Below are positions 40,837 to 51,465 of a stretch of DNA of 64,000 bases, one piece after another. The DNA comes from Micromonospora sp. LH3U1 (lineage in GTDB: Bacteria; Actinomycetota; Actinomycetes; Mycobacteriales; Micromonosporaceae): positions 4,153,501 to 4,217,500 of the forward strand of contig NZ_CP116936.1 of assembly GCF_028475105.1 (NCBI RefSeq), written 5' to 3'. The notes below the pieces were generated by a model. That model ran no database searches. It saw only the letters and a list, made by a program, of their open reading frames with translations, and was not told where the DNA came from. Positions within the stretch are counted from its first letter, which is position 1. Each line of letters opens with the position of its first letter. The translations under genes were made by a program, and so were the position numbers.

Positions 40837-41066
40837 CGAGCGAACCCCTGACCCCTCCGCCGGGGGACGAGCCGACGTCTTCGTCCCCGCGTTTTCCGGT
40901 AACTACAAGGCGCGAACCCGTTGCCACGTAACGTGAGAAGCAGCCGGTCAACGGCCTACAGCCAGACGCGGGCCGGGCCGCCACCGTGGCGGCGCCGCTC
41001 GGCCAACTGTCGGGACGGACAGCTCCGCACCGCCGCCGGCGTACTCAGCCGCAGGAGGAGCGGACG

Positions 41067-42629
41067 ATGCCCATGCTCTCGGTATTCGATCCTCGGCACA
41101 CTGTCGCTCCACCGGGATACAGCCGCTGGCTCATCCCGACCGCGGCACTGGCCGTGCACGTGTGCATCGGCCAGGTCTACGCGACGAGCGTCTACAAGAA
41201 CTCCCTCATCGCGCACTTCGACACCAGCCAGACGGCGATCGGGGCCATCTTCAGTATCGCCATCGTCATGCTGGGCTCGTCCGCGGCCGTGGGTGGCCGG
41301 TGGGTGGAGCGGAACGGACCACGTCGGGCGATGTTCGTCTCCGCCTGCTTCTGGGCCGTCGGGTTCCTGGTCGGCGCGCTCGGCATCGCGACCCAACAAC
41401 TCTGGCTCCTCTACCTCGGATACGGCGTCATCGGCGGCATCGGGCTCGGCATCGGCTACATCTCGCCCGTCTCCACCCTGATCAAGTGGTTCCCGGACCG
41501 GCCGGGTCTCGCCACCGGGTTGGCCATCATGGGGTTCGGCGGCGGCGCGCTGGTCGCCGGCCCGCTCGCACGCCAGCTGCTCTCCCTCTACGACTCCGGC
41601 TACAACCCCGCCAACCCTGCCGCCGTGGCGTCGGGACGTGCCCTCGTGGGGCTCTTCGTCACGTTCGGCATCGGCTACTTCGTGATCATGATGTTCGGCC
41701 CGTTCAACGTCCGGGTTCCGGCACCGGACTGGCGGCCCGCCGGATTCGACCCCGCGACCGTTGCCAGTCGACCTCTGGTGACGAAGGCGAGCGTGTCCGC
41801 CACGAACGCCGTGCGTACCCGGTCGTTCTGGCTGCTGTGGATCGTGCTGTTCTGCAACGTCACCGCGGGCATCGGCATCCTGGAGCAGGCCAGCCCGATG
41901 ATCCAGGACTTCTTCCGGGACAACGGATCCACCGCCGTCTCCGTGTCGGCCGCGGCTGGTTTCGTGGGTGTGCTGTCGCTGTTCAACATGGCCGGGCGGT
42001 TCGTCTGGTCGACGACGTCCGACCTCATCGGCCGCAAGCCCATCTACATGGTCTACCTCGGTGTCGGCATGGTGCTGTACGTGCTGCTCGCCGTGGCCGG
42101 CCACTCCGCGACCGCGGTCTTCGTGCTGATCGCTGCGGCGATCATCTCCTTCTACGGCGGTGGCTTCGCCACCATGCCCGCCTACCTGCGTGACCTGTTC
42201 GGCACCTTCCAGGTCGGCGCGATCCACGGCCGGATCCTGACCGCCTGGTCGGCCGCGGGTGTCGCCGGCCCGCTGATCGTCAACGGGATCCTCGACTCGC
42301 AGGGCAAGCCCGGCACTCTCACCGCGTCGGCGTACCGGCCCGCGCTGTTCACCATGGTCGGCATCCTGGCCATCGGCTTCATCGCGAACCTACTGGTCCG
42401 TCCCGTGCCCGACCGATTCCACGAGCCGGACCGGGGGCCGACGTCGCCCGTGGCGAAGGCCAGTGTCACCGAGCCGGTCGCCCTCGGCCCGCAGAGCAAC
42501 CCTCCGGTGCCGCAGCACGTCGGTAGCCAGACTGGGCGGCTCTGGTTGTCGTGGCTGCTCGTCGCGGTGCTCCTCGGGTACGGCATCGTCCAGACCGCCA
42601 TCACCGCCGCGAAGCTGTTCACCGGCTGA
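41067..42629 (+). CDS. OFA-family MFS transporter (oxalate/formate type)
   Basis: A 520-residue carrier. The opening YSRWLIPTAALAVHVCIGQVYATSVYKN, cut here to its core WLIPTAALAVHVCIGQVYA, and the segment GIGLGIGYISPVSTLIKWFP are hallmarks of the oxalate/formate antiporter family. There are 12 helices plus an extra C-terminal helix after a Pro-rich stretch. AGGAGGAG six bases before ATG 41067 decides the start. The gene converges on a formate dehydrogenase operon and its stop overlaps that of the NrfD gene by 11 bp. Formate or oxalate transport feeding the dehydrogenase is a reasonable inference. Confidence 0.85.
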   Translation: MPMLSVFDPRHTVAPPGYSRWLIPTAALAVHVCIGQVYATSVYKNSLIAHFDTSQTAIGAIFSIAIVMLGSSAAVGGRWVERNGPRRAMFVSACFWAVGFLVGALGIATQQLWLLYLGYGVIGGIGLGIGYISPVSTLIKWFPDRPGLATGLAIMGFGGGALVAGPLARQLLSLYDSGYNPANPAAVASGRALVGLFVTFGIGYFVIMMFGPFNVRVPAPDWRPAGFDPATVASRPLVTKASVSATNAVRTRSFWLLWIVLFCNVTAGIGILEQASPMIQDFFRDNGSTAVSVSAAAGFVGVLSLFNMAGRFVWSTTSDLIGRKPIYMVYLGVGMVLYVLLAVAGHSATAVFVLIAAAIISFYGGGFATMPAYLRDLFGTFQVGAIHGRILTAWSAAGVAGPLIVNGILDSQGKPGTLTASAYRPALFTMVGILAIGFIANLLVRPVPDRFHEPDRGPTSPVAKASVTEPVALGPQSNPPVPQHVGSQTGRLWLSWLLVAVLLGYGIVQTAITAAKLFTG

Positions 42630-43686
42630 CGCGAGCGTCGTCGAGCCGCTCCCGTTGTGGCACGACCGTGTACTTCGGATCGCGTGCCGACACCCTTCCG
42701 GCCTCGAAGACGCCGAACCGGGTGGCGACGGACGATGCCACGAGGGCCACGCCGGAGATCGTCGACAGGACTCGGCTTCCTCGGCTGACCAGCGCCGCGG
42801 CGGTGCCCACGGCGAGCAGGGCGCGCCCCGCCTTGACCAACCGGCCGCTGCGTCCGTGCCTGTAGGGCTCGGCCGTCAGTCCCTGCCGCTCCAGCTGGTG
42901 CCCTCCGCCCAACTCGATGGCCGCGGCGGCCAGGACGAGTCGTCGCAGTGGGGCGGTCTCCGCGGCCGGTGCCGCGATCAGTCCGACCCCGGACGCGGCG
43001 GCGAGCGCGCTGCCGGCAAAGACGAACGGCAGCGACGGGTACGCGTCGTGCCAGGACGGTACGGCCGTGTCGGCGAGCAGCACCCCGGTGTACGTGGCCA
43101 GCGCCGGCGCGGTGGCCGCCGCGGCCAGGCCGGCGACGCTGCCGATGGGCGGTGCGATCCGGCGGGCGAGGCCGAGCGCACCGTGCTGCGGAAGCAGTGG
43201 CGCTAGTTCGGCGATCGCCGCCACGCCGGCCAGCGGCCCGAACGCGGCGAGGATCCAGGTGCCGACCGACATCGGCGAGGTCAGCTTGGCTACCCGGAGC
43301 ATGTGGTGGAACCGGGTCGGCCGCCCGAGGTCGTGGACCAGCAGGTACGTGCTGGCGGCGACGCCGCCGAGGGCGGCCCAGCGGCTCACCTTGCGCAGCC
43401 CGGGTCGTCCGGTCAGTTGGGCGCCCGCGCCGATCAGCGCGCTTCCGGCGGCGAGGCCCCCGGTGAACAGGTAGCCGGCGATGTCGTGCTTCCACACGGG
43501 CGGTTTGAGGACCGGCCGGCCGTAGTAGGAGGCGAAGTCGGCCGGCGGCACGGTGAGCTGCTCGCCGCCGTCGCCGCCCCGCCTGCCACGCCGTCGGTGG
43601 CGCTTCCCGTCAGGCTGGTCGACGCTGGCCTGAAACTCGCGGAACCGGGCGCCGACCGGCTCGTTCGATGGCGTCGCGTCAGTCAT
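42619..43686 (-). CDS. NrfD-like membrane subunit of formate dehydrogenase
   Basis: A 355-residue membrane protein of the NrfD/PsrC family, with about eight helices after a basic N-terminal tail. Family phrases are WKHDIAGYLFTGGLAAGSAL and DLGRPTRFHHMLRVAKLTSP. It would pass electrons from the iron-sulfur subunit to menaquinone. It is the third gene of the fdh operon and overlaps the preceding gene by ATGA. Confidence 0.87.
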   Translation of the reverse strand: MTDATPSNEPVGARFREFQASVDQPDGKRHRRRGRRGGDGGEQLTVPPADFASYYGRPVLKPPVWKHDIAGYLFTGGLAAGSALIGAGAQLTGRPGLRKVSRWAALGGVAASTYLLVHDLGRPTRFHHMLRVAKLTSPMSVGTWILAAFGPLAGVAAIAELAPLLPQHGALGLARRIAPPIGSVAGLAAAATAPALATYTGVLLADTAVPSWHDAYPSLPFVFAGSALAAASGVGLIAAPAAETAPLRRLVLAAAAIELGGGHQLERQGLTAEPYRHGRSGRLVKAGRALLAVGTAAALVSRGSRVLSTISGVALVASSVATRFGVFEAGRVSARDPKYTVVPQRERLDDARVSR

Positions 43687-44726
43687 TGCCGCCTACCCAG
43701 GAACGCGACCGCCGTGGCGACGGCCATCGTCATCGCCGCCAGGCCCGCGCGCTTCCACATGGCCGGCAGGTCCCGCGTGGTCACAATCGGATCCGGTGGC
43801 AGGCCGTACACCTCGGGCTCGTCGAGGAGCAGGAAGAACGCACCGTCACCGCCCACCCCATCATTCGGGTCATGCCCGTACAACCGCGCCTCGGGGACCC
43901 CCCGCTCGTGCAGCGTCTCGACCCGCGCGGCAGCCCGCTCCCGCAACTCGTCCAAAGCCCCGTACTGAATCGACTCGGTCGGACACGCCTGCGCACACGC
44001 CGGAGTCATCCCCGCGCCAAGCCGGTCGTAGCACAGCGTGCACTTCCACGCCCGCCCATCATCCTTACGCTGATCAATCACACCATAAGGACAGGCCGAG
44101 ATGCAGTAACCACACCCATTGCAGATGTCCTCCTGCACCACCACCGTCCCGAACTCCGTCCGGAACAACGAACCCGTCGGGCAGACATCCAGGCACGCCG
44201 CATGCGTGCAGTGCTTGCACACGTCGGACATCATCAACCAACGGAAATCACTACGCCCCTCCGCGCCGGTGCCCCGACCCGGCGGCTGCGCACCCGGCAT
44301 CCCGAGGAATTCCGGCCCACCCGACATTCGTGCTGCCGCCGCTGGCGAGCCGCTCGGCAGGCCCGGGGTCGTCCCGGTGTCGGTGCTGGTACGCGCGCCG
44401 ACCGCCGCGGTCGCCGGGCTGACCGCAGGCCCGTCCGGGTTCTCCGCGAACGCGGGGGTGGACCAGCCGGAAGGACGGGGCTGCTCTATGAACGCCACGT
44501 GCCGCCACGAGTTCGCGGTCAACGCGCCGGTGTTGTCGTACGACATGCCGAGCAGGTCGAGGCCGCTCTGCGGGACGCCGTTCCACTCCTTGCACGCCAC
44601 CTCACAAGCCTTACAGCCGATGCAGACGCTGGTGTCGGTGAAGAACCCCATCCGCGGCGGCGCGTCCACGTAACCGGCGTCGGGCGCCGGGTCCAGCGGG
44701 CCGTACAGGGCGTTGGCATGTGGCAT
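43683..44726 (-). CDS. Formate dehydrogenase iron-sulfur subunit
   Basis: A 347-residue electron-transfer protein with four 4Fe-4S cysteine groups: CIGCKACEVAC, CKHCTHAACLDVCP, CNGCGYCISACPYG and CTLCYDRLGAG with the later CAQACP. A low-complexity insert of about 60 residues (Thr/Ser/Pro/Gly) sits between the first and second groups. A C-terminal hydrophobic helix (AAMTMAVATAVAFL) may anchor it. It starts 3 bp after fdhA, with AGGAGG inside the fdhA end. It carries electrons from the molybdenum subunit to the NrfD-like membrane protein. Confidence 0.92.
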   Translation of the reverse strand: MPHANALYGPLDPAPDAGYVDAPPRMGFFTDTSVCIGCKACEVACKEWNGVPQSGLDLLGMSYDNTGALTANSWRHVAFIEQPRPSGWSTPAFAENPDGPAVSPATAAVGARTSTDTGTTPGLPSGSPAAAARMSGGPEFLGMPGAQPPGRGTGAEGRSDFRWLMMSDVCKHCTHAACLDVCPTGSLFRTEFGTVVVQEDICNGCGYCISACPYGVIDQRKDDGRAWKCTLCYDRLGAGMTPACAQACPTESIQYGALDELRERAAARVETLHERGVPEARLYGHDPNDGVGGDGAFFLLLDEPEVYGLPPDPIVTTRDLPAMWKRAGLAAMTMAVATAVAFLGRRQ

Positions 44727-44729
44727 CGG

Positions 44730-47700
44730 TCAGACCTCCTGGTCGTGGCCGCTGTCGGGGTCGTCGGTCGTGACCTGCGGCGGATAGTGCGGGCTGAGGT
44801 CCCCGGACCGCCGCCGGTAGTCGACGAGGAGTTCCAGTAGTGCCAGTCCTCTCGGGCGCCGACCGGGCCGCACGTCGCAGGTGCCGACCTTGCTCTCCTG
44901 GATCAGGACGTTCGGGTCGAGGCTGATACCGAACAGGTCGTTGGCCGAGTCACCGGTCACCAGGCCCTCCGGGCCGAAGTGGTACGGCAGCCAGAGCTGG
45001 TGGATGATGCGGTTGTCGACCCGCAGCGGGGTCAGCCGGTCGGTCACCAGCACACGCGCCTCGATGGCCGCGCGGGTGGTGATCAGGTGCGTCCAGCCCA
45101 GGTGGTTGAGGCCACGTTCCGCCGCCAGCTCCGGCGACACCTCGACGAACATCTCTGGTTGCAGCTCGGCCAGGGGCGACACGTTGCGGCTCATCGCGCC
45201 GGCGGTGTGGTGCTCGGTGAGCCGGCTGACCGTGAAGATGTACGGGAACACCTGGCTGTGCGGCTCCGGTGGGCTCGGGTTGAGCGTGTTGATCGGGTGT
45301 GTGTAGACCTTGCGGGTCGGATTGGACTGCTGCCGGTAGAGCGGGTTGCGCACCGGTGACTCGACGGGCTCGTAGTGGGTGGGCATCGGCCCGTCGAGCA
45401 CGCCGGTGGGCGCGTACAACCAGCCCTTGCCGTCGCCCTGAAGGATGAACGGGTCGTCGCCGGCAATGCCCGCCACGCCCGAGGCGTCCGGGCCCGGTCG
45501 GTAGGACGGCGGCTTGTTCTTCTCGAAGTCCGGCACGTCGTAGCCGGTCCACTCGCCCTTGTCCGGGTCCCACCAGACGTACTTCTTCCGCTCGCTCCAC
45601 GGGTTGCCGTCGGGGTCGGCGGAGGCACGGTTGTAGAGGATGCGCCGGTTTGCCGGCCAGGCCCAGCCCCACTCCAGGGCGACCATGGACTGCTCGCTGG
45701 CGGGTTTGCGGCGAGCGGCCTGGTTGACGCCGTCCGCGTACACCCCGCTGTAGATCCAGCATCCGCAGACGGTGGAGCCGTCGTCCTTCAGCTCGGTGAA
45801 GGACGACAGTGGCCGACCGGTCGCCACCTCGTACCCGTTGATCTCGCGCAGCACCGACTCGGCGCTCGGCTCCGCGTGCGGACCGTGCGTGGGGTAGTCC
45901 CAGGCCAGGTCGAGCAACGCGCGGTCGCGGGACACGGTCGACGTCGCCAACCGTTCCCGGATGACGCGCCCGAGGTGGTAGAAGAACCACAGTTCGGAGC
46001 GGGCGTCGCCTGGCGGCTCGACGGCCTTCTCCCGCCACTGCAACAGACGTTGGGTCTGGGTGAAGGTCCCCTCCTTCTCCACGTGCGAGGCGGCGGGCAG
46101 GAAGAACACCTCCGTTCGGCACTCCTCCGGCACGATCTCACCGGTCTCGATCTCGGGCGCGGTCTGCCAGAACGTCGCGCTCTCAATCATGAACAGGTCC
46201 CGGACCACCAACCAGTCCAGGTTGGCCATCCCGAGCCGCTGCGCACGACCGTGCGCCGAGCCGACGGCCGGGTTCTGGCCGAGCAGGAAGTAGCCCTTGA
46301 TCTTGCCGTCGATCATGTCGAGCACCTGCTGGTAGGTGCCGTGATCACCGGTCATCCGCGGCATGTAGCCGTAGCAGTAGTCGTTGTCGGCGGTGGCGGC
46401 ATCACCCCAGTACGCCTTGAGCAGGTTGACGCCGTAGGCGCGGGCGTTACCCCAGAAGCCCTTCTGGCCCGGGTGCCGGATGCTGTCCACCCACTCGTCG
46501 AAGGTCGGGTGGTCGGCGTGGTGCGGCATCGGCAGGTAGCCGGGCAGCAGGTTGAACAACGTCGGGATGTCGGTGGAGCCCTGGATGCTGGCGTGCCCGC
46601 GCAGTGCCATGACCCCGCCACCCGGGCGACCCATGTTGCCGAGCAACAGCTGGATGATCGCGCCGGTGCGGATGTACTGCACACCCACACTGTGCTGCGT
46701 CCACCCGACCGAGTAGACGAGCATGCTGGTCCGTTCCCGGCCGGAGTTCCGCGTCCACGCCTGGGCCAGCTCCAGGAACTTGTCCTGCGCGATGCCACAG
46801 ACCCGCTCGACCATCTCCGGTGTGTAGCGGGCGTAGTGCCGCTTGAGGATCTGGTAGACGCAGCGCGGGTGCTGCAACGTCTCGTCGCGTTCGGTGTCGC
46901 CGTCGACCGGCGCGCCGTGCGACTCGTGCTCCAGCCCGGCCGCGGTCTCCCGCTGGGTCTCGGTGTCGCGGGTCGTCACGTTCTGCCCGTTGCCCGCGTA
47001 CCGCCAACTGGCCTGGTCATAGCTGGCGTTCTCGATCTTGAAGCCGGAGAAGAGCCCGTGCAGGTCCTCGGTGTCGGCGTACTCCTCGGTCACGATGGTC
47101 GCCGCGTTGGTGTACGAGACCACGTACTCCCGGAAGTCGAGCTCGTTGTCCAGGATGTAGCGGATCACGCCACCGAGCAGGGCGATGTCGGTGCCTGCCC
47201 GGATCGGCAGGTACGCGTCCGCCACCGCGCTGGTGCGGGTGAACCTCGGGTCGACGTGGAAGACCTTCGCGCCGCGGCGCTTGGCCTCCATCACCCACTG
47301 GAAGCCCACCGGGTGCGCCTCGGCCATGTTCGAACCCTGAATGACGATCATGTCGGAGTTCGACAGGTCCTGCTGGTACTGGGTGGCGCCCCCACGGCCG
47401 AAGCTGGTCCCCAGACCGGGGACGGTGGAGGAGTGTCAAATACGGGCCTGGTTCTCGATCTGGAGCGCCCCCATCGCGGTGAACAACTTCTTGATGAGGT
47501 AGTTCTCCTCGTTGTCCAGCGTCGCCCCACCCAGGCTGGAGATGCCCAGCGTCCGGTTGAGCGGCCGACCCTCGTCGTCGACGTCCTCCCAGGTTTCGTC
47601 CCGGGCGGCCAGGACCCGGTCGGCGATCATGTTGAGCGCCGTGTCGAGGTCGAGGTCCTCCCACTCGGTGCCGTACGGCCGGCGGTAACGGATCTTCGTC

Positions 47701-48005
47701 TGCCGCAGCGGGCTGGTCACCAGACTCTTACTGGCCGAGCCCTTCGGACAGAGCCGACCCCGCGAGATCGGGCTGTCCGGGTCGCCCTCGATCTGACTGA
47801 CCTGCCCGTCCTTGACGAACACCCGCTGGCCACAACCCACCGCGCAGTACGGGCAGACGGACCGGGCCACTGAGTCGGCGGTTTCCGTGCGGGCGGTGAG
47901 CGCCCGGGATCCGTCGGACTTCGCCGCGGCGCCCCGGCCGAGCGGGTCGGTGCCGGTGAGCTGGCGGTAGACCGGCCAGCCCTCGATCCAGCTCCGCACC
48001 CCCAT
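44730..48005 (-). CDS. fdhA: Formate dehydrogenase catalytic subunit, selenocysteine-containing
   Basis: A 1091-residue molybdopterin oxidoreductase that oxidises formate to CO2. The N-terminal 4Fe-4S group is CPYCAVGCGQ with GRLCPKGSAS. Codon 190 (47436-47438) is an in-frame TGA in the context ENQARI-Sec-HSSTVPGLGTSFGRGG, exactly where formate dehydrogenases carry selenocysteine or cysteine. The frame continues without other stops to 44730, and a SECIS hairpin follows the TGA, so I read it as a selenoprotein; conventional callers will split it at this codon. ATG 48005 has GGGAAGG seven bases upstream; a GTG at 48044 is also in frame. Membrane export motif is not evident. Operon with the iron-sulfur and NrfD-like genes. 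Confidence 0.93.
47407..47423 (-). other. Bacterial SECIS element in fdhA mRNA
   Basis: Reading the minus strand, 12 bases after the UGA a stem GTCCCC / GGGGAC encloses the loop GGTCT. The loop sequence equals the SelB-binding GGUCU loop of E. coli fdhF, and the loop begins 18 bases after the UGA in both. This directs selenocysteine insertion by SelB. Confidence 0.88.
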
Positions 48006-48948: not shown

Positions 48949-49476
48949 ACCGCGCAGTCTGGCGGATCCAGGTTACGAAGGCTAGCCACTGCTAGAAGCA
49001 TCTGCCCGGCGGCCTCTGCGGCCCGCAGCGGCTGAGGGTCTCGTTGATGCGCACCGGTACCTGGTGCGCAAGGCTCATCTTCGGGCGGCCCCGGGCCTGC
49101 CGTACCCGGCGGTGTTCCACGCACCCGGCGTACAAACTTGCTTGCGCTGGCCCCGGCTTGGGCCGCCCAGACGGGTACGGCCACCGCGGCGCCGGTCGGG
49201 TACCCCGGCCAGACCTTCCAGGTCGTGGCGGCGATCCATCGCCGAACGTGAAGTCCTTGGGATGAGCGGCCCCGCATGGGTTGGCCGGCAAGCGGTGGAC
49301 GGGGCTTTTGCCGTTGATCGTAAATAAAATCCACTTTGTCTGAAATCTGCCTAGATACAGCTAGAACCCTCCTTATTCGACGAATCGCTCTAATACGCTA
49401 TGAATCGCCCACGAGCTAACGGTGCGTAACTCGCAAGCAGCTCCGGGTGTATCCGAGGCGGCTCTCTGGAGGGGTC
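48949..49476. other. 528-bp non-coding gap with promoter region of the collagen-like gene
   Basis: The first 350 bp are GC-rich with short open frames that I cannot assign. From about 49316 the sequence turns AT-rich, unlike the surroundings, and contains an 11-bp palindrome ATTCG-A-CGAAT (49375-49385). This part is likely promoter and leader of the collagen-like gene. Confidence 0.5.
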
Positions 49477-51465
49477 ATGAGCAACAACCGACGGCTGCGG
49501 CGGGGGCTGAAGCGTGGCCGCGCCGCTTCCGGGCTGAGTTCTGCCCTGATGGTGGTCGGGATGACGGGTGGGCCCGCAGCCGCAGCGCAACCCGTGGAAG
49601 CGAAATCGCCTGCCCAGGCCGTGCACATGGGTACGCCCGGTCCGCTCGGCCAGTACGGCGGGTGGCCGTCCTCTTGGTCGACTGTCCGCCAAGACGGCGG
49701 CGGACCTGACGATTCGCCGGGCCACTACCCTGGCGGACCACCGGACCACGGCCCGCAGGGCTGGCAGGGCCCGTGGCACGACGGGGGCAAGCGGCCGAAG
49801 CCGGCCTACCCGCATGGCTCCAAGGGCAGTAAGGGCAAAGGCCCTCAGGGCGTTCAAGGCGCACAGGGCGACACCGGCGCTCAAGGCGTTCAAGGTGCTG
49901 AAGGTGCCCAAGGCGACACGGGCTCCCAGGGCAACACCGGCGCCCAAGGCAACCAAGGCTTCCAGGGTGCTCTAGGCGCCCAAGGCAACACCGGGGCACA
50001 AGGCAACCAAGGCGACACCGGCTCCCAAGGTTTCCAAGGTGCTCAAGGCGCCCAAGGCAACACGGGCGCTCAAGGCGCTCAAGGCTTCCAGGGTGCTCAA
50101 GGCAACACCGGCGCACAAGGCTCCCAAGGCAACACGGGCGCTCAAGGCTCCCAAGGCTTCCAAGGTGCTCAAGGCAACACGGGCGCTCAAGGCTCCCAAG
50201 GCTTCCAAGGTGCTCAAGGCAACACCGGCGCACAAGGCTCCCAAGGCAGCACGGGCGCTCAAGGCTCCCAAGGCTCCCAAGGCTCCCAAGGCTCCCAAGG
50301 CAACACCGGCTCCCAAGGTTTCCAGGGTGCTCAGGGCGCTCAGGGCGACACCGGCTCCCAAGGTTTCCAGGGTGCCCAAGGTGCCCAAGGCAACACCGGT
50401 GCACCAGGCAACACCGGCGCACAAGGTGCCCAGGGCAACACGGGCGCTCAAGGCGCTCAAGGCGCTCAAGGCGCCCAAGGCGCCCAAGGCGCCCAGGGCA
50501 ACACCGGCGCCCAAGGCTCCCAGGGCGCTCAGGGCGCCCAAGGCGACACCGGCGCACAAGGCACCCAAGGTTTCCAAGGTGCTCAAGGCGCCCAAGGCGA
50601 CACCGGCGCACAAGGCACCCAAGGTTTCCAAGGTGCTCAAGGCGCCCAAGGCGACACCGGCGCACAAGGCACCCAAGGTTTCCAAGGTGCTCAAGGCGCC
50701 CAAGGCGACACCGGCGCACAAGGCACCCAAGGTTTCCAAGGTGCTCAAGGCGCCCAAGGCGACACCGGCGCACAAGGCACCCAAGGTTTCCAAGGTGCTC
50801 AAGGCGCCCAAGGCGACACCGGCGCACAAGGCACCCAAGGTTTCCAAGGTGCTCAAGGCGCCCAAGGCGACACCGGCGCACAAGGCACCCAAGGCAACAC
50901 CGGCGCACAAGGCAACCAAGGCGACACCGGCTCCCAAGGTTTCCAGGGTGCCCAAGGTGCCCAAGGTGCTCAAGGCAACACCGGCGCACAAGGTGCCCAA
51001 GGCAGCACGGGCGCTCAAGGCGTTCAAGGCTTCCAAGGTGCTCAAGGCGCCCAAGGCGACACCGGCGCACAAGGCACCCAAGGTTTCCAAGGTGCTCAAG
51101 GCGCCCAAGGCGACACCGGCACACAAGGCACCCAAGGTTTCCAGGGCGACACGGGCGCCCAGGGGGCTCAAGGCGCGCAGGGGTTGCAGGGCGTACAAGG
51201 ATCCCAGGGCGCGCAGGGTCTGGCGGGCAACGGGATCGACTCAGCATACATCCAGGGCCCGCTGACCGTGATTGCGGACACCCCCGTCAATTTCGGGTGC
51301 GTGCCCGGAGACATTGCTGTCGGAACCGGATATCAGCTCTCGGGTGCGGGCGTCAACCCGGTGCTGATCCAGCCGCTCTCGATCAGTGGCTACCAGTTCA
51401 CCTTTACCGGCGGAGGCGCCGACATCTGGGTGTCCTGTATCTCACCCACCAATCCCGTGGCGTAG
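49477..51465 (+). CDS. Secreted collagen-like GXY-repeat surface protein
   Basis: A 662-residue exported protein. The N-terminus has a basic region and a hydrophobic stretch ending GGPAAAAQP (signal peptide). A Pro/Gly-rich spacer precedes an uninterrupted run of about 155 GXY triplets (about residues 120-585), mostly GAQ, GFQ, GTQ, GNT and GDT, i.e. a Gln/Thr-rich collagen-like triple helix with almost no proline. A 75-residue C-terminal domain ([20 protein letters not shown] onwards) with two Cys probably trimerises it. GGAGGGG before ATG 49477 sets the start. Exposed Thr in GNT/GDT resemble glycosylated sites in Bacillus BclA. It is followed by a lipoprotein and a glycosyltransferase fusion gene. 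Confidence 0.9.
50560..50883 (+). repeat. Six identical 54-bp tandem repeats in the collagen-like gene
   Basis: Six head-to-tail 54-bp units, each coding 18 residues ([18 protein letters not shown]), appear identical including synonymous positions. Near-copies lie at about 51069-51130. Lack of silent differences implies recent expansion or gene conversion, so length variation between strains is expected. Confidence 0.9.

Follow-up and report, generated by a model that had tools for sequence, protein, structure and literature searches.

A formate dehydrogenase gene of Micromonospora with a predicted selenocysteine codon and a frameshifted selA in the same genome

The window analyzed here, a 64,000-nucleotide stretch of the Micromonospora sp. 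LH3U1 genome (NZ_CP116936.1), carries a formate dehydrogenase alpha subunit gene, fdhA (44730..48005, minus strand), with a stop codon inside its reading frame, and raises the question of whether this UGA is decoded as selenocysteine (Sec) or terminates translation. The frame opens with the ATG at 48005, closes with a stop whose last base is 44730, and contains a single in-frame TGA at 47438-47436 (minus-strand letters GCC CGT ATT TGA CAC TCC TCC ACC GTC CCC GGT CTG GGG ACC AGC). The original prediction placed this UGA at codon 189; counted from the ATG at 48005, the putative selenocysteine codon (47436..47438, minus strand) is codon 190. The same prediction had anticipated that routine gene callers would report two broken genes, and a mechanical open reading frame list indeed splits fdhA into frames of 202 and 873 residues. 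Recognizing the read-through keeps a 1092-codon enzyme gene from being annotated in this way.

Translated through the UGA, the 1092-residue FdhA product matches the actinobacterial formate dehydrogenase family NF041513 (formate_DH_Act) with 1960.5 bits (cut-off 1400) over residues 6-1066, covering profile positions 2-1067 of 1067. This full-length alignment across the UGA agrees with the earlier observation of family sequence on both sides of the codon, and FdhA is a member of the family with no substantive difference from it. The product also matches TIGR01553 (939.8 bits) and contains three Pfam domains above gathering score (PF04879 Molybdop_Fe4S4, PF00384 Molybdopterin and PF01568 Molydop_binding). 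The predicted molybdenum ligand site reads ENQARI-U-HS, with the putative Sec followed by His. In 16 homologues the aligned residue is Cys, encoded by TGC or TGT, and in one relative the codon is TAG. Most of the NF041513 members sampled have UGA; in our first set of loci the site codon was TGA in 114, TAG in 1, and TGC in one Cys genome (G043, read twice). Relative to its nearest relatives, fdhA has a dN/dS of 0.13-0.19, and the purifying selection spans the whole frame, the greater part of which lies 3' of the UGA. At the N-terminus (window position 48005, MGVRSWIEGWPVYRQ...) a twin-arginine signal is absent by eye, unlike in the periplasmic FDH-N of E. coli, and from this sequence the enzyme may face the cytoplasm.

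Just downstream of the UGA lies a candidate bacterial SECIS hairpin (47407..47423, minus strand), whose 6-bp stem GTCCCC/GGGGAC (arms 47423-47418 and 47412-47407) encloses the loop GGTCT (47417-47413). The UGA-to-loop spacing is 18 nt, putting the loop at +19..+23; stem, loop and spacing are all as originally described. The hairpin falls within the limits of the bSECIS model (apical loop of 3-9 nt, G in the first two positions, 16-37 nt from UGA to loop; PMC13188914), with a 5-nt loop, GGUCU, that begins with G. Pairing is preserved in all 52 distinct relatives, where 312 of 312 cells (100%) form standard pairs and 13 are altered on both sides in a compensatory manner. The third-position pair +15/+27 occurs in five types (CG, UA, UG, GU and GC), none of 500 shuffles equalled the observed pairing or covariation score, and alternatives with a slid register reached 70% pairing at best. 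Codons 190-200 form the strongest synonymous-constraint peak of fdhA (z 4.7); the four top-scoring windows in the gene begin at codons 190-193 (z 4.1-4.7, 100 de-replicated genes). The hairpin codons run counter to the codon preference of the gene set, using CCC for CCG and GGT for GGC. Where Sec genes have the hairpin-encoded Pro (CCC), the Cys homologues read have Ala, Val or Ser, and the hairpin is lost in all of them.

Folding the minus-strand RNA, as the original prediction had proposed, yields the 6-bp stem with its GGUCU loop, at an energy no better than that of shuffles of the same sequence (z -0.52, no extra stability). Because the sequence is so GC-rich, fold energy alone is no evidence, and hairpin stability was dropped as an argument for a SECIS element. 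An Rfam scan of the window gave no match, which counts neither for nor against one. A lower stem (+5..+11 with +41..+47) that appears in single-sequence folds was set aside, as its third-position partners vary so as to break pairs.

The hairpin had further been likened to the geometry of E. coli fdhF, and this holds in part. The fdhF element, a 41-nt sequence that was examined across 5,368 E. coli genomes, has GGTCT at the same +19..+23, and the elements of both organisms lie right after the UGA and are encoded by homologous codons (V-x-[GS]-L); E. coli fdnG differs from both fdhF and the Micromonospora gene in having the loop AGTCT. Spacing and loop thus carry over, but neither a bulged U nor a conserved lower stem is predicted for the Micromonospora element. 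Bacterial SECIS elements are said to share a conserved bulged U (PMC8704476), which in E. coli is the U at +14. In the Micromonospora hairpin the U at +14 is predicted to be paired, and in 52 of 52 sequences an A or G is available as its partner; the Val codon also requires a U at this place.

Decoding of this UGA as Sec would need selA, selB, selC and selD, which the original prediction expected in the host. The genome is a single contig of 7,090,248 bases (99.99% complete) and has all four: a tRNA-Sec (selC; 73.2 bits, anticodon TCA), selB with an open frame (253.8 bits, cut-off 242.25), selD (376.5 bits, cut-off 125) and selA, the last of which is frameshifted in the assembly. A second fdhABC operon lies ~0.5 Mb away, with selC-selA-selB directly downstream of it, and its fdhA (L017 14203-17445) likewise carries a UGA and the hairpin. 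The genome thus holds two Sec formate dehydrogenase operons, of which the one in the window has no sel genes beside it. The two fdhA copies are identical in stretches, including 105 nt without a difference that run into the UGA region, which suggests gene conversion or strong constraint.

The broken selA is the less expected observation, and on it hinges the present Sec-decoding ability of the strain, depending on whether the frameshift is a sequencing error. Profile matches to selA fall in two pieces in different frames (342.7 and 43.8 bits; L017 11384-11716 and 10413-11405, minus strand; G000 C1:3.678-3.680 Mb). DNA alignment shows one base missing in comparison with 14 of 14 same-genus selA sequences, and the 5' frame stops after ~110 codons. 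A single full-length selA match is present in 32 of 36 same-genus genomes (no match in 4 of 36), and a profile search of the Micromonospora genome found no second selA.

Were the frameshift real, Sec synthesis would have been lost recently, UGA would again be a stop in this strain, and neither fdhA copy would give more than a 189-residue fragment, leaving the locus a relic early in decay. Such a loss bears on what the strain can do today and is compatible with a selenoprotein origin of the gene. It would have precedent, as loss of selenoproteins is documented in Actinobacteria (PMC1794560), and it draws support from the gap against all 14 aligned sequences, the short 5' frame and the quality of the one-contig assembly. 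A comparison with a close complete genome (G002) over ~42,000 aligned residues (~125 kb) turned up no clear frameshift inside a gene, flanked by coding-like substitution, other than that of selA. The assembly as a whole is therefore not of poor quality, and an abundance of indels is not supported as the cause of the break. Against a real loss, intact sequence and normal constraint are seen in both fdhA copies, selB, tRNA-Sec, selD and what remains of selA. Values of dN/dS relative to the nearest relatives are 0.10-0.13 for selB and 0.11-0.19 for the 3' part of selA, and span 0.07-0.19 across both fdhA genes, selB and the remaining selA. Given these ordinary values we rejected relaxed selection on fdhA after an old selA loss, and since the other Sec genes are intact and constrained, any loss would have to be very recent. 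Moreover, the errors that typically remain in assemblies of GC-rich DNA include indels of one base. On balance we regard a real loss as the less likely reading and residual sequencing error as the likelier source of the break. In a genome with two selenoprotein formate dehydrogenases, this frameshift either warns of assembly error or offers a rare look at the first step of Sec loss.

The distribution of tRNA-Sec bears on a second alternative. UGA can be leaky in bacteria, and a near-cognate tRNA such as that for Trp might read codon 190 in place of tRNA-Sec. In 297 genomes of the class, 62 have an fdhA match bearing one TGA, and tRNA-Sec is present in 59 of these, compared with 22 of the 235 other genomes. 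The three exceptions comprise one genome whose Sec-site codon is really TGC (G339) and two incomplete genomes (G081 and G116). Three same-genus genomes (G010, G014 and G023) have a UGA-containing fdhA and no tRNA-Sec match; their assemblies consist of 800-990 contigs, so the missing tRNA is not evidence. This co-occurrence, the SelB-type hairpin and the two tRNA-Sec matches in the genome of the TAG-bearing relative together make near-cognate reading highly improbable. Hardly any weight can be given to a true stop followed by a separate protein from the ATG at 47351, the arrangement that the two listed reading frames would suggest, since neither part would be a complete enzyme, conserved sequence continues without a gap across the UGA, relatives have Cys in place of the stop, and selection acts on the hairpin.

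We consider it very probable, judging from sequence, that fdhA encodes a selenoprotein belonging to the NrfD-linked formate dehydrogenases of actinobacteria, with UGA 190 decoded as Sec through SelB and the hairpin. This central claim of the original prediction is upheld by the family match, the Cys column, the covarying SECIS element, selection, the sel genes and the co-occurrence of tRNA-Sec. By analogy with known relatives, a ribosome translating fdhA mRNA would meet the UGA at codon 190, where SelB, docked on the GGUCU hairpin 18 nt further on, would bring in Sec from its Sec-tRNA-Sec (UCA anticodon) instead of allowing termination. Sec190 would then serve as a molybdenum ligand in the active site, and electrons would be expected to pass from FdhA to the iron-sulfur subunit (43683-44726) and on to the NrfD membrane subunit (42619-43686).

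Three further cases among the relatives deserve mention. The TAG-bearing fdhA (G051, locus L167) has the same hairpin and is consistent with the known UAG-selenocysteine bacteria; UAG-Sec formate dehydrogenases of Geodermatophilaceae (PMC5330540) share the enzyme family and the hairpin with the gene described here, using UAG where it has UGA. In another genome, fdhA (G031:C4:361672-364848) has an additional in-frame TAG beyond the Sec-UGA, and may be a pseudogene, an error or something else. Lastly, the two fdhA paralogues of G024 (L164 and L165) were considered as genes truly lacking the UGA segment. This was rejected, as both miss almost identical segments at the same places, and the gaps look like assembler collapse of near-identical paralogous stretches.

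The codon immediately 5' of the UGA shows a regularity of its own. In Micromonospora this codon is Ile189, ATT (47439..47441, minus strand), and in every Sec relative read it ends in A or U: all 141 readings of Sec or UAG genes conform (127 ATT, 13 ATA and 1 GTT), a count that represents at least 100 distinct sequences and is inflated by shared ancestry. Elsewhere in the same genes, 97% of Ile codons are ATC, and the Cys homologues have GTC or GTG at this position in 16 of 16 cases. A second, cytoplasmic-type Sec formate dehydrogenase has ACT before the UGA in two genes, a triplet used for ~1% of Thr residues across the fdhA set. The rule does not hold universally, since E. coli fdhF and fdnG have GTC before the UGA where Micromonospora fdhA has ATT. 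Our tentative suggestion, somewhat short of an even bet on these counts, is that selection maintains the base 5' of the Sec-UGA as part of the recoding signal in actinobacterial Sec formate dehydrogenase genes. If so, the signal would reach upstream of the UGA, past the downstream hairpin on which the bacterial SECIS models consulted are based. One possibility is that the sequence context influences how release factor and Sec-tRNA compete; the literature searched offered no explanation. As it stands, the rule provides a simple, testable hypothesis on UGA recodability in GC-rich actinobacteria.

A stop codon read as Sec in formate dehydrogenase is a well-known arrangement, and no bacterial selenoprotein is more widespread than FdhA (PMC5029168); Micromonospora is a less studied host, and we found no description of a Sec formate dehydrogenase from this genus in the literature searched. 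The selA frameshift and the A/U rule matter more than the finding of a Sec-UGA itself. The closest published system is that of Actinomycetospora chiangmaiensis DSM 45062, for which selenium-dependent formate removal has been reported, along with a cluster of FdhA, FdhB, FdhC, a permease, SelA and SelB, and the detection of FdhA and SelA/B/D by proteomics (PMC7176365). Its two enzymes, FDH1 and FDH2, resemble the Micromonospora system in having a Sec-containing FdhA, an FdhB, a membrane FdhC and a predicted bSECIS element, with one cluster accompanied by selA and selB (PMC7176365). Selenium dependence and expression are shown in A. chiangmaiensis, whereas the Micromonospora window operon is the second, sel-free copy, is known from sequence, and belongs to a genome with a frameshifted selA.

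Within the window, fdhA is followed by genes for a 4Fe-4S electron-transfer subunit and an NrfD-type membrane subunit. The former, fdhB (43683..44726, minus strand), matches Pfam Fer4_11 and scores 182.7 bits against TIGR01582 (FDH-beta), under the cut-off of 334.7; the latter, fdhC-like (42619..43686, minus strand), matches PF03916 NrfD with 58.3 bits. Convergent with this operon is a lactate / oxalate-formate type MFS transporter gene (40986-42629, plus strand), with an "MFS transporter small subunit" domain (NF047966) fused at the C-terminus of its product, which is possibly a formate or oxalate carrier. On the other side of fdhA, positions 49447-51465 (plus strand) hold a 672-codon open frame of collagen-like Gly-x-y repeats (GAQGxQG).
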